Source of the DNA: Roseobacter sp.
GTDB taxonomy: Bacteria; Pseudomonadota; Alphaproteobacteria; Rhodobacterales; Rhodobacteraceae
Assembly (NCBI GenBank): GCA_015665415.1
Contig: JADFAE010000010.1
Location: 248,001 to 312,000 of the forward strand
Length of the DNA: 64,000 nt
Reading direction: 5' to 3'
The notes beneath the pieces were generated by a model. The model had not been told where the DNA came from. It saw only the letters and a program-made list of their open reading frames with translations, and did not search any database. Below are positions 9,653 to 15,140 of the stretch, piece by piece. How positions within the stretch are numbered: position 1 is the first letter of the stretch; the number at the start of each line of letters is the position of its first letter. The translations under genes were made by a program, and so were the position numbers.

Positions 9653-10342
9653 ATGACGGAGCCCAGTGAGACCATGCGATTTGACCGCCTGCCAGAAACC
9701 GGCTTTCTCTCTGCCGCCTCCGCGCCGCTGCGGGAGATGCTGGAAAGCCAGGCCAGCGAAGTGCGTCTTTCCAACGGCGAGGTGCTGTTTGAGCAGGGTG
9801 ACACCGGAGATGCCTTTTACGCCATCATCGAAGGATCGTTGGAGTTTTCCATCCTCTCCGCCTCGGGGCGCAAACTCTCGCTGGACCTGATGCGCCCCGG
9901 TGCTGTCTTTGGCGAGATCGTGCTGTTTGATCCCGGTCTGCGCACCGCCACCGCCACCGCTGCCGAACCCAGCCGATTGCGTCGCCTGCGCAACCGGGAT
10001 ATCCTGGCCCAGATCAAAGAGCACCCCGAATTGGCGGGTGATCTCTTGCGCCTGGCCGGGCAGCGCATGCGATGGATGAACATGCAACTGAATGAGCAGG
10101 TCTTCCTGCCGATGCCGGTGCGCCTGGCCCGCAAGCTCTTGTATCTGACCCCCGAGACCGGCAACGGGCGGCTCTCCCTGTCGCAGGCAGAACTGGCGGA
10201 ATATGTTGGCGCCACCCGCGAGGCGGTCTCCAAAACCCTGTCAAACTGGAAACGCAGCGGATTGATCGAGATCAGCCGCGGCGGGTTGCAGATCCTGGAC
10301 CGCAACGCTTTGGGCCTGCTGGCCGAACCTGAATCCATTTAA
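9653..10342 (+). CDS. Crp/Fnr-family transcriptional regulator
   Basis: A 229-residue regulator with an N-terminal cyclic-nucleotide-binding-like beta barrel (about 20-135; GEVLFEQGDTGDAFYAIIEGSLEF, MRPGAVFGEIVLFDPGLRTATATA). A C-terminal winged helix follows (about 165-220; LSLSQAELAEYVGATREAVSKTLSNW). The N-terminal Cys cluster of FNR is absent, so it is not an oxygen-sensing FNR; cAMP or another ligand is possible. ATG 9674 is an alternative start seven codons in. A GC-rich hairpin follows at 10385-10412. Confidence 0.9.
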   Translation: MTEPSETMRFDRLPETGFLSAASAPLREMLESQASEVRLSNGEVLFEQGDTGDAFYAIIEGSLEFSILSASGRKLSLDLMRPGAVFGEIVLFDPGLRTATATAAEPSRLRRLRNRDILAQIKEHPELAGDLLRLAGQRMRWMNMQLNEQVFLPMPVRLARKLLYLTPETGNGRLSLSQAELAEYVGATREAVSKTLSNWKRSGLIEISRGGLQILDRNALGLLAEPESI

Positions 10343-10412: not shown

Positions 10413-10651
10413 CCTGCAGGTGTATCGGCCCACGCGTGGATCGCTCTTGCACAGCAAGGCGACCCACAAGAAGCCTTGACCGAAAGCCAAATGGAAACTA
10501 ACCAAGGTGCAGGTTGTAGACGCCTGCCTCCCGCCGACATGTGTCATGGTAAAGTTCTGCGCGATTACATTTCTATCTCTTTCCGCATGTCGCGCGGATG
10601 GCAATGCGGGCCCCATCTCAATCACGCGATTTGATCAGAGAGAATTGGGAT
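10413..10651. other. Upstream region of the MATE gene
   Basis: Together with the terminator before it, this is part of a 309-base gap. No gene is supported. It should contain the promoter of the MATE transporter, but no clear operator was recognised. Confidence 0.4.
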
Positions 10652-12043
10652 ATGTCTACCGCCCCCACCAATACATTCACCGATGGCCCACTTGCTGCCA
10701 TCTATCTGAAAACCGCGCTGCCCATCATCCTGGTGATGGCAATGAACGGTCTGCTGTCTGTGGCCGACGCGCTTTTTCTTGGCCTTCACGTTGGCCCTGA
10801 GGCCCTGGCCGCCGTCACTTTGATGTTTCCGCTCTACATGCTGATCGTGGCACTTTCCACGCTTGTATCAGGCGGGATGTCCAGCCTTTTGGCGCGCGCC
10901 TTCGGTGCTGCGGATATAGAGAAGGCGCGTGCTATCTTTGCAGGTGCACATGGGCTCGCTCTCTGTTTGGGCCTGAGTCTCATTCTTCTGTTCGCCTGCC
11001 TTGGCCAGTCGATGGCCTTACTGGCAGCCGGCGGGTCAAGTGAACTGGCACAGATGGGGGTGATCTACCTGCGGATCACTGTGCTGTTTTCGCCGCTGCT
11101 GTTTGTGCTCTCCGTCAACTCCGATGCCCTGCGCAACGAAGGACGAGTTGGTTTCATGGCCGCCATGAGTCTGCTGGTTTCCCTGGCAAACATCTGTTTC
11201 AACTACGTTCTCATCGTCGGTCTTGAAATGGGAGTTGCTGGATCTGCCTATGGTACGGCAGCCGCGCAAACCTTGGCCTTTGCGATCATTTTTGGGTTCC
11301 GCCTCATCGGGGAGACCCCACTGCGGCCCTCTGGCTTGCGACGGTCTTCGATGCTGCTGTACTGGGGAAGAATTCTCGCACTCGGCGCGCCGCAAAGCCT
11401 GAATTTCATCGGTCTAGCACTCGGGTCGGCTGCAATCATTACCGCCCTCCAATGGTTTGGTGGCCCAAATTATGCCAATACGGTAACGGCCTACGGGATC
11501 ATCACCCGCGTTATCACCTTTGCTTTCCTCCCCCTTTTGGGGCTGTCCTTTGCAATGCAAACCATCACTGGCAACAACTACGGTGCAACACTATGGCAAC
11601 GGTCAGATGCAAGTCTGCGTATCTCTCTTTTGGTTGCCTTCCTATATTGCGCCTTGGTCCAAGTCATTGTGATGAGCGCCCCCAACCGGATAGCCAGCGC
11701 CTTTGTGAGCGACCTTGCCGTAATCTCAGAGGTAGAACGCATCCTGCCGGTGATGACCTGCGTCTTTTTCCTCATGGGACCGTTGATGATGGTGGCCAGC
11801 TACTTTCAAGCGATAGGATCTGCCGCAAAGGCGGCTCTCTTGGGGCTAAGCAAACCCTATGCCTTTGCAATCCCCCTGACGTTTCTGCTGCCGTTTCCTT
11901 TTGGTGAAATCGGGATCTGGTATGCCGGTCCATTGGCCGAAGTCATGTTGTTCATCTTGACGGCTTTTGTGCTTTGGCGGGTGATGCAAGAGCACAAATT
12001 GAAATGGGGTCTCTTCCACAAAGAAAAAGGCGATGCGCTTTAA
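10652..12043 (+). CDS. MATE-family multidrug/cation efflux transporter
   Basis: A 463-residue integral membrane protein with about 12 predicted helices in two homologous halves, typical of MATE Na+/H+-driven exporters. The N-terminal half begins IYLKTALPIILVMAMNGLLSVADALFLG, followed by LSTLVSGGMSSLLARAFGA. The second half begins GAPQSLNFIGLALGSAAIITAL. The frame opens at ATG 10598; I chose ATG 10652 (MSTAPTNTFTDG) because the added 18 residues look non-coding, but the start is not certain. Substrate is unknown. An imperfect hairpin (12071-12103) follows. Confidence 0.88.
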   Translation: MSTAPTNTFTDGPLAAIYLKTALPIILVMAMNGLLSVADALFLGLHVGPEALAAVTLMFPLYMLIVALSTLVSGGMSSLLARAFGAADIEKARAIFAGAHGLALCLGLSLILLFACLGQSMALLAAGGSSELAQMGVIYLRITVLFSPLLFVLSVNSDALRNEGRVGFMAAMSLLVSLANICFNYVLIVGLEMGVAGSAYGTAAAQTLAFAIIFGFRLIGETPLRPSGLRRSSMLLYWGRILALGAPQSLNFIGLALGSAAIITALQWFGGPNYANTVTAYGIITRVITFAFLPLLGLSFAMQTITGNNYGATLWQRSDASLRISLLVAFLYCALVQVIVMSAPNRIASAFVSDLAVISEVERILPVMTCVFFLMGPLMMVASYFQAIGSAAKAALLGLSKPYAFAIPLTFLLPFPFGEIGIWYAGPLAEVMLFILTAFVLWRVMQEHKLKWGLFHKEKGDAL

Positions 12044-12198: not shown

Positions 12199-12780
12199 TC
12201 AGTTTTGGCTGCGCCATTCCCAGGGCGGCAGCGTCTCTGCTTGCCAGATGCCGAGGTTCTCGGCCTGTGCGGCCTCGACTTCCGGCTGGTAATACCCCTG
12301 TTCGCGATTGGGCCAGGCCAGGCCTTCTTCGACCAGACGGGCACCAATATCCTGCCCATCCGCCTGACAGGACGCAACATAATGGCCATAGTTGTCGCGA
12401 CTGTTGCTGAAACATTCCACCAACTCAGCCGACCGCAGCATCTCTCGCATGCGATCCTCGGCTTGTGCCGCGCATTCCCAAAAGCCCCCGTCGGACCCGG
12501 TGCATTGCTGGGCCATCTCTGGGGCATCAATGCCAACCAATCGAATCTTCAAATTGCCCAGAGCGACAAAATCGCCTTCGATGACACGAAAGGCCTCGCC
12601 GGGCACCGAGAGCAATGGCTCCATCACACCGGCGAGCTGCTGAATGTTGCGCAGCTCCAGAAACACCTTTGCCGAAGCCGGATCCGCCAGGAGAGGAAGC
12701 TCTGTGGCAGATGCTGTGCTCGCCGTCATCGCTAAGGCGAGGCCTGCCAGGGTTCGTTTTATCATCATCTTATTGACCAT
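12199..12780 (-). CDS. Secreted thermonuclease-like (SNase-fold) protein
   Basis: A 193-residue protein with a signal peptide (about residues 1-25, GLALAMTASTASA). A staphylococcal nuclease-like OB fold follows: GDFVALGNLKIRLVGIDAPEM is the family's strand with Asp and Glu, then ECAAQAEDRMREML and DNYGHYVASCQADGQDIGARLVEEGLAW. The canonical second catalytic Arg that usually reads D-x-Y-G-R is HYVASC here, so catalysis is uncertain. ATG 12780 has no clear ribosome site, and internal ATGs five and six codons in are alternatives. Confidence 0.8.
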   Translation of the reverse strand: MVNKMMIKRTLAGLALAMTASTASATELPLLADPASAKVFLELRNIQQLAGVMEPLLSVPGEAFRVIEGDFVALGNLKIRLVGIDAPEMAQQCTGSDGGFWECAAQAEDRMREMLRSAELVECFSNSRDNYGHYVASCQADGQDIGARLVEEGLAWPNREQGYYQPEVEAAQAENLGIWQAETLPPWEWRSQN

Positions 12781-13046
12781 TCTGGATAGGAGAGTGGGGT
12801 GTAATCAGGCTGAAGACTGCCTGAAAAGTATCCAAAAACGGTTAACTGGGCTGCGCAGTCTTCACATGTTTGGCCCCAAAGCACCGCCAATTGACCTATT
12901 CCCAGGGCCAGACAAGGGGCCCGAACCCAGTGCCGCAAGCTGCCTGTATAGCTCTGATTAGATTTGAAAAGGTCAAATCCCGTCGCAGCCCTGCCGCGCC
13001 CTAAATCTCGCTTCAATTTGAACAAATCTTGCGCTTCGCTCATCGC
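12781..13046. other. Gene-free stretch before the predicted small RNA
   Basis: Part of a 502-base gap between the nuclease-like gene and degP. No credible ORF is seen. The rest of the gap holds the CRP-type site, predicted small RNA and degP terminator listed separately. Confidence 0.5.
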
Positions 13047-13062
13047 TGTGAACCAGATCACA
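13047..13062 (+). promoter_or_regulatory. Exact CRP-type site TGTGA-N6-TCACA
   Basis: TGTGAACCAGATCACA is a perfect match to the CRP half-site arrangement TGTGA-N6-TCACA. Its centre (13054.5) lies 41.5 bases before a predicted start at 13096, the class II activator position. A CATAGT hexamer (13084-13089) stands at the matching -10 place. A Crp/Fnr-family regulator gene is at 9653-10342, but a direct link is not shown. Confidence 0.55.
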
Positions 13063-13095
13063 GAACGCGCGCCTCAGATCTGCCATAGTGATCTC

Positions 13096-13177
13096 AAGAC
13101 AGGGACCTTCATTCCATCCCAATGAAAACCTGTTCCATACAAGAGCCATATGCCCGCCAGCATATGGCTCTTTCCTT
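13096..13177 (+). ncRNA. Predicted small regulatory RNA (about 80 nt)
   Basis: There is no ORF, but a complete small transcription unit can be read. Upstream is a CRP-type site and a CATAGT -10-like hexamer. The predicted RNA begins near 13096 and folds a 5' hairpin. ACAGG (13099-13103) pairs with CCTGT (13129-13133). Inside it TTCATT (13108-13113) pairs with AATGAA (13121-13126), exposing the C-rich loop CCATCCC. The 3' end is a 12-bp perfect stem AAGAGCCATATG/CATATGGCTCTT (13141-13152, 13161-13172) followed by TCCTTTTG. C-rich loops in alphaproteobacterial sRNAs often pair with ribosome binding sites. Expression is inferred only. Confidence 0.5.
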
Positions 13178-13180
13178 TTG
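13141..13180 (+). terminator. Intrinsic terminator with no upstream ORF
   Basis: A perfect 12-bp stem with an 8-base loop CCCGCCAG is followed by TCCTTTTG on the + strand. The nearest + strand gene upstream (MATE) ends about 1.1 kb earlier and has a reverse-strand gene in between, so this terminator needs its own transcript. Confidence 0.75.
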
Positions 13181-13227
13181 TCCCCTCCCGAATGCCCATT
13201 GCTTTGCTCATCCGAGAGCCCGACGTG

Positions 13228-13253
13228 CAAAAGGCCGGGCAATACCCGGCCTT
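13228..13253 (-). terminator. degP transcription terminator
   Basis: Reading the - strand, AAGGCCGGG and CCCGGCCTT form a 9-bp stem with loop TATTG, followed by TTG. It lies about 30 bases after the degP stop codon. Confidence 0.7.
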
Positions 13254-13282
13254 CCAACGCAGATCCTAGCGACCTGACGGTT

Positions 13283-14821
13283 TTATTTGAGCAGGTTCAG
13301 CGCCACAAAACGCGGCTCGCCATTGCGACGGACCAACAGCAGCAGGGATTTGCGCCCCGCCTCCTTGGCCTCAGAGATTCGGGCCTCCAGGTCACGGATG
13401 CTGGTCACCTTCTGCTGGCCTGCCTCGGTGATCACATCGCCAGCCCGCAGCCCTTTCTCCCAGGCCTCGGAGACCTCGTTGACAGAGAGGATGACCAGAC
13501 CGTCCGTCTCAGCAGAGAGGTTCAGTTCCCCCCGCAGCGTATCGGTCAGGGTGCCGATCGTCAGACCCAGAAGTTCCTTTTCGGTCACCGAAGGTCCGTC
13601 TTCTTCTGTGGAGGGCGCCGGGCTCGCCTGGCGCTCGGCATCCTCGCGGCGGCCCAGAGTGACCTTCAAGGTCTCTGTCTTGCCTTCCCGATAAACCACG
13701 ACGCGCACCGTCTTGCCCACTTCTGTATTGCCAACCGTGCGCACCAGGCTGCGGGTGTTCTTCACCTCGGTGCCATCAAAGCTGAGGATCACATCCCCGG
13801 CCAGCAGGCCGGCCTCCTTGGAGGGCCCCTCTGGCACATCGGTCACCAGCGCGCCCTTGGCATCCTCCAGCCCCATGGCCTCGGCTACGTCATCGCTGAC
13901 ATCCTGAATGCGCACGCCCAGCCAACCGCGGCGGGTCTCACCAAATTCCTTGAGCTGATCGACAACCTTGGTCACCACGTTCGAGGCCATGGAAAAGCCG
14001 ATGCCAATAGAGCCGCCATTGGGAGACAGGATCGCGGTGTTCACACCAATGACATCCCCATCCATATTGAACAGCGGCCCGCCAGAGTTGCCGCGATTGA
14101 TCGCTGCATCGGTCTGAATGTAATCATCATAAGAGCCCGAGAGTTCGCGATTTCGGGCGGAAACAATACCGGCAGAAACGGAAAACCCCTGCCCCAGAGG
14201 ATTGCCCATCGCCACAACCCAATCGCCCACGCGGGCTGTATCGCTGTCACCAAAGATGACAAATTTCAGCGGCGAAGGCGCTTCGACCTTGAGCAGGGCG
14301 ATATCGGTATTTGGATCGGTGCCAATGACCTTGGCCGGCAGCAGGGTCTTTGGCTGGCCTTCGCCGGGAAAGAACTCGATCTCGATTTCATCGGCATCGG
14401 CAATCACATGGTTGTTGGTGACGATATAGCCGTCTTCGGAGATCACAAACCCCGAACCCAAGGCTGAAGACCGCTGTGGGCGATTGCCATTGCCCCCGTT
14501 GCGATCCTGAAACTCACGAAAGAAATCCTCAAACGGAGAGCCCTCGGGGACGATGCCCTGGGGGCCGGTACGGCCTTCGATCACGGTCGAGGTGGTGATG
14601 TTCACCACCGCCGGGCTGACCTCATCCGCCAATGGTGCCAGGCTTTCGGGACGCGCCTGCGCCGACAGCGTCTGGGCCAAGATCAGCCCCAGGCCAAGCA
14701 CGGCCAGCCACAGCAGGCGCCAATAGCCTGCCTGCCTGTCCTGATCTGTTGAAACTGCAATTGCCTGAGCCTGAGCCTGCACCGATCTACTCCTTGTCAT
14801 CACCATTCCTGTTGTCGTCAT
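13283..14821 (-). CDS. degP: Do-family (DegP/HtrA) periplasmic serine endoprotease
   Basis: Envelope protease and chaperone for misfolded exported proteins. From ATG 14821 it has 512 residues. An N-terminal membrane/signal segment lies at about 34-55. The trypsin-like domain carries His138 (VTNNHVI), Asp173 (NTDIALLK) and Ser246 (GNSGGPL). Two PDZ domains follow (about 290-375, GWLGVRIQDVSDDVAEAMGL; and about 410-505, GLTIGTLTDTLRGELNL). The frame opens as far as 14923, but a GGTGAGGA site upstream and signal-peptide context support 14821. It lies downstream of hflK-hflC, a common alphaproteobacterial order that joins FtsH regulators and envelope proteolysis. Confidence 0.94.
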   Translation of the reverse strand: MTTTGMVMTRSRSVQAQAQAIAVSTDQDRQAGYWRLLWLAVLGLGLILAQTLSAQARPESLAPLADEVSPAVVNITTSTVIEGRTGPQGIVPEGSPFEDFFREFQDRNGGNGNRPQRSSALGSGFVISEDGYIVTNNHVIADADEIEIEFFPGEGQPKTLLPAKVIGTDPNTDIALLKVEAPSPLKFVIFGDSDTARVGDWVVAMGNPLGQGFSVSAGIVSARNRELSGSYDDYIQTDAAINRGNSGGPLFNMDGDVIGVNTAILSPNGGSIGIGFSMASNVVTKVVDQLKEFGETRRGWLGVRIQDVSDDVAEAMGLEDAKGALVTDVPEGPSKEAGLLAGDVILSFDGTEVKNTRSLVRTVGNTEVGKTVRVVVYREGKTETLKVTLGRREDAERQASPAPSTEEDGPSVTEKELLGLTIGTLTDTLRGELNLSAETDGLVILSVNEVSEAWEKGLRAGDVITEAGQQKVTSIRDLEARISEAKEAGRKSLLLLVRRNGEPRFVALNLLK

Positions 14822-15140
14822 GTTCTTTTTATCCTCACCACAAGCGGATCTCGCCCATGGGGTCCTTTTGCTGCTGCACTGCCCGCATCCGGTGATCCCT
14901 GCGATCACCCCGCTATTGGGCACCTACAATACATTCATAATCCTGCTCTCTATGTAGGGGGAGAATTTCCCTTCGCAACACCTGTAGGAGCGCTTCAATT
15001 CACTGTGAAATACCATCCCAGCGCGCTGGGGCAACCCAAGGCGGGGCTTTGGAACGGAGTTTAACAGCATTGCCCGTGAAAACAGCCCGGAAAAATCAAG
15101 AGGGCCGGTAAATGCTGCAGACATCGGGTTTCTTCACTAT
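14822..15140. other. Upstream region of degP
   Basis: With the hflC terminator this forms a 377-base gap. No gene is supported. It probably carries a degP promoter separate from hflKC, because a terminator stands between hflC and degP; no clear envelope-stress motif was recognised. Confidence 0.4.

Follow-up and report, generated by a model that had tools for sequence, protein, structure and literature searches.

A probable small RNA gene behind a Crp-type promoter in Roseobacter, and a regulator-promoter pair conserved across its family

What is made from the short interval next to the convergent degP frame in this Roseobacter genome, and which regulator might control it? In the stretch of DNA analysed here (the window, 64,000 nucleotides), this interval holds a CRP-type palindrome, an extended -10 and a hairpin-rich sequence closed by an intrinsic terminator (Table 1). 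The explanation that we regard as probable is a gene for a small trans-acting RNA, the partner of the neighbouring Crp-type regulator. A predicted promoter of its own and an intrinsic terminator are present, as for a trans-acting base-pairing sRNA; transcription, binding of the Crp-type protein and the targets of the RNA are what we infer from the DNA sequence.

Table 1. Coordinates of the features discussed, numbered from the first nucleotide of the window.
Feature	Position	Strand	Basis or remark
Crp/Fnr-family regulator gene, proposed activator	9653..10342	+	Pfam PF00027, PF13545, PF00325 above cut-off
MATE transporter gene between crp and the predicted RNA gene	10598..12043	+	Pfam PF01554
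SNase-like gene between crp and the predicted RNA gene	12199..12780	-	Pfam PF00565
CRP palindrome TGTGAACCAGATCACA	13047..13062	+	predicted centre at -41.5
GA extension of the palindrome (TCACAGA)	13063..13064	+	G in 40/49, A in 43/49 aligned promoters
Extended -10, TGC-CATAGT	13081..13089	+	TG 13081-13082, CATAGT 13084-13089
Predicted small RNA, about 80 nt	13096..13177	+	fold z -6.9; covariance-model match in 12/12 genus genomes
5' stem-loop	13098..13134	+	arms 13098-13103/13129-13134 and 13108-13113/13121-13126; double changes across genera
C-rich loop CCAUCCC, proposed pairing seed	13114..13120	+	12/12 genus sequences; 13/13 aligned RNAs from 6 genera
Intrinsic terminator	13141..13177	+	13-bp stem 13141-13172, U-rich tail
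Hairpin resembling degP's own terminator, AAGGCCGGG...CCCGGCCTTTT	13227..13257	-	read from sequence; not listed by terminator scan
degP/Do serine protease frame, convergent neighbour	13283..14923	-	NCBIfam TIGR02037 above cut-off

The promoter elements named in the original prediction are all in place. The exact TGTGA-N6-TCACA that it reported, TGTGAACCAGATCACA, is the single such site in the 64 kb (shuffles: mean 0.02), and no second palindrome with up to one mismatch occurs elsewhere in the window. The CATAGT hexamer lies where it was claimed and is preceded by a TG, and the claimed position of the palindrome, centred at -41.5, holds with the +1 predicted from the sequence at 13096. Class II CRP promoters have a -10 at this spacing from the palindrome, and the window promoter appears to follow that layout: the palindrome is at -41.5, a -10 is present, and a -35 would not be required. 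No TTGACA/TATAAT-type promoter came out of a consensus scan of 12500-13800, which is expected of an activator-dependent promoter without a -35 box. By itself the exact palindrome is not enriched in the window genome, with 4 sites versus 3 for a reversed control pattern. It had been argued that so well-spaced a set of parts is unlikely by chance; what raises the palindrome above chance is its conservation.

The predicted transcript folds as had been proposed, into an RNA of about 80 nt with a 5' stem and a CCATCCC loop; the fold of 13096-13180 has an energy of -30.8 kcal/mol (z -6.9), and 0 of 200 shuffles fell as low. The terminator is likewise present, its stem being one pair longer than the 12 bp first given. 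The claim that the unit holds no ORF is consistent with the genus sequences, 12 in all, among which none is conserved. Translation of a small RNA from the ATG adjacent to the loop would draw on the presence of that ATG in 11 of the 12 sequences and on a frame relative to the terminator that 8 of those 11 share; yet the ATG lies 20, 21 or 22 nt from the terminator, the frame shifts in 3 of the 11 and reads on through the terminator with no stop before it, and the ATG is part of a stem. We give this reading almost no credence and rejected a coding RNA for want of a conserved ORF.

Rfam 15 has no gathering match in the window, and membership of an Rfam family was rejected on that ground; a lax search of 12950-13260 gave five rows at E<=5, all far below the gathering scores. 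A sub-threshold Rfam match to SorX (14.6 bits versus a cut-off of 46.6) falls on the degP-side hairpin, at 13227-13260 of the minus strand, and probably reflects terminator resemblance only. In the titles and abstract openings of the open-access literature searched, no Crp-linked RNA of this group was found, and the description of the element as undescribed can be upheld within the limits of Rfam 15 and that literature. As to size, PMC4809877 gives 101-488 nt for trans-sRNAs of R. pomeroyi.

Conservation may be followed at two depths. When 60 genomes were searched at the DNA level, the unit turned up in 12 of 12 from the genus (the window's included) and in none of the 48 others, and the covariance model gave one full-length match on its own strand in each of the 12; the extra rows in these genomes cover the terminator on the other strand. 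The palindrome half-sites and CCATCCC are invariant in all 12 sequences, and pairwise identity averages 87.9% over the palindrome, 100% over the loop, 96.1% over the terminator, 43.2% over the spacer before the -10 and 53.3% over the -10 hexamer. Across the family, model R1 matched in 12 of 394 genomes (E 0.001) and model R2 in 18 of 394 (E 0.01), two genomes of the window's own genus included; because large searches run under strict filters, these counts are lower bounds. Matches to the terminator only were removed by eye (L027, L029, L031, L166, L172), and L171 is likely a chance match; other matches combine palindrome, C-rich hairpin and terminator. Promoter-RNA sequences from 11 members of the genus and from 6 other genera were aligned; 15 of these 17 have an exact palindrome, the inexact ones being TGTAA...TTACA in G273 and TGTGA...TTACA in G110.

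The stems covary. In 13 RNAs from 6 genera, 90.6% of helix cells are paired (shuffles 86.4, with 0 of 500 as high), where control structures slid along the alignment reach at most 46.4%, and 17 cells are changed on both sides (shuffles 6.1, 0 of 500 as many; slid structures at most 10). Two weaker measures are the 8 pairs with a double change, reached by 2 of 500 shuffles and equalled by the +3 slide (8), and the count of additional pair types, 20, which 26 of 500 shuffles attain. The terminator stem shows an A-U to G-C double change. The window RNA itself deviates, forming 15 of the 23 shared pairs, few of them in the 5' stem, with a shifted outer helix of its own. These observations bear on one alternative, namely a promoter-like palindrome followed by the terminator of degP and no functional RNA. 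Its terminator hairpin is symmetric, and a similar GAGCC/GGCC-type hairpin lies directly after degP in G141, G172, G274 and G127. Nevertheless, conservation with double changes is seen for loop and 5' stem, the spacing between palindrome and -10 is constant in the 49 promoters described below, and the window has a separate hairpin behind degP (Table 1). A mere degP terminator was rejected on the stem covariation and the fixed -10 spacing, and an interval without a functional RNA seems to us very improbable.

Which regulator would act on such a promoter is suggested by the gene order. The original prediction placed a Crp/Fnr-type gene about 3 kb away; Pfam confirms this identity, and the gene ends 2.7 kb 5' of the palindrome. 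In all 14 contexts with a model match (11 other genera and 3 of the window genus), the RNA lies downstream of a crp orthologue on the same strand. The left neighbour of the RNA is crp itself in 11 of the 11 other-genus contexts and in G005, which is why the regulator nearby becomes the central point of our argument. On the other side degP is convergent in 13 of the 14, the contig ending in G010. The conservation that had been proposed as a check, of the unit between the nuclease-like gene and degP, is borne out: the unit is kept in the genus and in other genera with covarying stems, but its left neighbour in the 12 contexts just named is crp and not the nuclease-like gene. Of the two genes that separate crp from the RNA in the window, the MATE gene has no match in the three other contexts of the genus (G003, G005, G010), and the SNase-like gene occupies the same place in G003 and G010 and is absent in G005. 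Since the RNA usually follows crp directly in related genera, it looks like the regulator's own RNA arm, which in some relatives is accompanied or supplanted by a tiny protein.

The regulator itself has a cNMP-binding domain and a Crp HTH, both above the Pfam cut-offs. As it scores 48.1 bits against the cut-off of 266 of the NCBIfam equivalog model for CRP (NF008732), and is no orthologue by that model, we term it Crp-type and not CRP. Its recognition helix, VGATREAVSK, aligns to VGASRETVNK of 3d0s_A (R-E-x-x-x-K), and its nucleotide cassette, fgeivlfdpglrtatat, aligns to the same structure over the pattern FGE...R-T/S; the R-E pair and the nucleotide-cassette residues are those with known roles in Crp proteins.

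The pairing of gene and promoter was then weighed across the family. The Crp regulator of the window type is found in 58 of 394 family genomes (E 1e-45), and a palindrome with at most one mismatch lies within 390 nt behind the match in 49 of the 58, in 36 of them exact; over 100 dinucleotide shuffles the corresponding means were 0.47 (maximum 4) and 0.02 (maximum 1). Upstream of crp, 0 of 30 regions examined had a palindrome. The nine Crp genes without a nearby palindrome at that threshold comprise that of the window, where the MATE and SNase genes come between crp and the palindrome, those of G273 and G079, where it has 2 mismatches, and those of G122, G424, G331, G174, G012 and G293. An alignment of 49 promoters by their palindromes (47 of those just counted, with the weak sites of G275 and G243 left out, plus the window and G273) has C, A and T at -12, -11 and -7 in 40, 43 and 31 cases, and G at -14 in 36. 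At the level of sequence, the regulator gene and a class II palindrome promoter form a pair conserved across the family.

A view from the degP side agrees. Among 90 regions (30 + 60, mostly the best-scoring rows with some skipped, two shorter than 300 nt) out of 195 genera with a degP match, a palindrome follows crp in 13 of the 14 with crp beside degP and is found in 1 of the 76 without; the one is the window, whose crp is displaced. The span searched for the palindrome differed slightly between the two groups. One region seen in passing, L303 (G228), has a fdx-pgb-degP block without crp and is also without palindrome or RNA beside degP. These counts speak to the reading in which a different Crp/Fnr paralogue controls the RNA and its adjacency to the 9653-10342 gene is conserved gene order only. 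Paralogues likely exist, given that a loose first look with the Crp protein yielded between 7 and 29 candidate places in each genome that matched. However, palindrome and crp go together beside degP in the proportions just given, and the pair persists away from degP, for example in G016, G148 and G223; conserved gene order by itself gives no reason for a palindrome between genes to be retained, and we hold control by a paralogue to be unlikely.

What the promoter makes differs between genera. By reading, and from R2 matches on the Crp strand, a C-rich hairpin RNA is present in 17 of 57 genera; seven of the genomes counted had trained R2, and Crp-strand R2 rows that are terminators or ambiguous hairpins were excluded (G274, G163, G172, G280, G127, G389, G122, G145). 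In 14 of these genera the RNA stands without a small ORF (the window genus, G273, G330, G328, G339, G110, G235, G173, G073, G079, G066, G263, G078 and G108), and in the other three, G016, G248 and G141 (L430, L437, L445), palindrome, small ORF, C-rich hairpin and terminator follow one another in one predicted transcript. G079 and G141 fit the loop motif loosely. Including these three, 13 genera have behind the palindrome an ORF of 41-53 aa (about 50 aa) of one family, with the motif roughly W-x5-DR-x-FR-x2-Q-x3-D (L433, L443, L437, L430, L460, L461, L434, L445, L463, L431, L438, L450, L440). Leave-one-out profiles recover 13 of the 13 members at E 2e-16 to 1e-4, the best of 269 other ORFs reaching E 0.016. 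Pfam gave no match at E 1 for the six of the 13 that were tested, NCBIfam none above cut-off for five of five, and DUF1127 had no match in the ORFs of G016 and G248; a DUF1127 identity was rejected for the ORFs tested on the lack of a Pfam or NCBIfam match, and by these comparisons the family is new. In the genera not yet named, different small ORFs or putative RNAs occur. Four loci (L436, L444, L447, L451) represent another output type, an RNA or an ORF, with a GGTCGC-type leader after the palindrome, CCCATCCC or CCAACCCC and later a TCCTCCCC-like stretch.

These outputs invite a reading compatible with an RNA partner of the Crp-type regulator: the ancestral transcript would have combined the protein of about 50 aa with the C-rich 3' hairpin, and the window would keep the RNA part, a specialised remnant of an mRNA 3' end comparable to the ccaF1-CcsR transcript of R. 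sphaeroides. The three genera with ORF and hairpin in one predicted transcript, the 13 with the ORF family at the same place, and the co-transcription of ccaF1 with the CcsR RNAs, as described in PMC10253847, favour such a dual output. Against it stand the window itself, where the small-ORF family has left no trace (best E 0.33), and the other 10 small-ORF genera, in which no full-length match to the RNA model was accepted, although hairpins with C-rich loops are visible by eye in G154 and G145. On balance we put this history at slightly under an even chance.

A broader version, for which the odds appear to us to be level, sees a family-wide cassette in which a Crp-type gene nearly always has its own class II promoter behind it, the output of which was exchanged in evolution (the protein of about 50 aa, that protein with a C-rich RNA in one transcript, or an RNA by itself), with the window RNA at the non-coding end of a protein-to-RNA transition. 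Under this exchanged-output reading, the RNA would have been kept in the window because making it is a main job of the regulator, an idea that draws on the other palindromes of the window genome: among its four exact ones, that of the window is the sole one in which the GA extension and a -10 occur together. Elsewhere in that genome, one palindrome sits within a 565-aa frame, a second overlaps the start region of an S30AE-domain gene of ribosome hibernation type (L197, minus strand), and the third lies between divergent frames (L196, 1501-1516, minus strand), where it has a TATAGG at class II distance before a MarR-family gene and no GA extension. The MarR-family gene is a possible second target of the same regulator.

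Should the locus work as a regulator and its RNA partner, a rise in the regulator's ligand, probably a cyclic nucleotide, would lead it to bind the palindrome, from where it could contact RNA polymerase and switch the RNA on. The single-stranded CCAUCCC loop might then pair with purine-rich stretches resembling GGGAUGG, most of them in ribosome-binding sites, and this pairing would lower translation of the target mRNAs. A search for GGGATGGAA in three genomes gave 25, 36 and 43 sites (7, 8 and 9 for the reversed pattern), one per genome being the RNA gene itself. Of the genes read, amtB alone has such a match where a ribosome would plausibly bind in two of these genomes. At its ribosome-binding site CGGGATGGAAGG, complementary to the RNA loop, is present in 9 of 11 genus species (L411-L421) and changed in the window species (G000) and in G005. 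In duplex energy, 4 of 72 background sites equal or better it in the window species, and between 3 and 45 of 72 do so in each of the ten others; amtB does not stand out by energy and may be taken as a weak lead to a target.

The locus offers a ready-made test system, in which an exact promoter is linked to both the regulator and the predicted RNA and the output is protein or RNA according to genus. Because the same cassette has different outputs in different genera, how the small-protein arm of a regulator turns into an RNA arm may be asked directly. A regulator of unassigned function also gains a predicted ligand class, a predicted site and a first candidate target. Finally, a published network model predicted no CRP-analogous protein for R. 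sphaeroides (PMC4344238), and the 58 of 394 family genomes with the Crp-type regulator, 49 of them with an adjoining CRP-type palindrome, may be set against this if the relatedness of the two groups is assumed.

Several known systems resemble parts of this arrangement; closest in action are CyaR, CcsR/CIN1 and VqmA-VqmR, none of which fits as a family. The window regulator has the cNMP and HTH architecture in common with 3d0s_A, taken to be M. tuberculosis CRP, and 7pza_A, taken to be S. meliloti Clr, and with 3d0s_A also the recognition-helix and nucleotide-cassette residues, although it is distant from both (100 and 76 bits). The ChIP motif of M. tuberculosis CRP is described as similar to the E. 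coli CRP motif TGTGAN6TCACA (PMC4117774). The predicted RNA is like CyaR of the enterobacteria in being a short intergenic RNA with a C-rich, anti-Shine-Dalgarno-like loop and an intrinsic terminator. CyaR is CRP-activated and is not known to be linked to the crp gene in E. coli; the window RNA differs in having no Rfam match, CyaR not being among the five lax rows for 12950-13260. CyaR is named among RNAs with anti-Shine-Dalgarno loops in PMC3927594.

With CcsR and CIN1 the locus shares C-rich hairpin loops and, in three genera here, a small protein gene and a C-rich hairpin RNA in one transcript, as predicted from the sequence. CcsR-type C-rich RNAs and the CIN1 locus (DUF1127 + CcsR-like) are reported from alphaproteobacteria in PMC3927594 and PMC10253847. 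Unlike these, the window RNA has the loop CCAUCCC, where CcsR has CCUCCUCCC, and one C-rich hairpin where CcsR has several; the promoter here is of CRP type and lies beside a Crp gene; the small ORFs tested have no match to DUF1127, which CIN1 has, and the window has none of the ORF family. From VqmR of Vibrio it differs in that no sequence relation to the window RNA was seen, the two being compared via Rfam only. The vqmA and vqmR genes are adjacent, and VqmA is not known to be a Crp-family protein. The likeness is one of arrangement, a transcription factor activating a small RNA gene linked to its own: VqmA does so for VqmR, as stated in PMC13251380, and the Crp-type regulator may do the same for the predicted RNA of the window.
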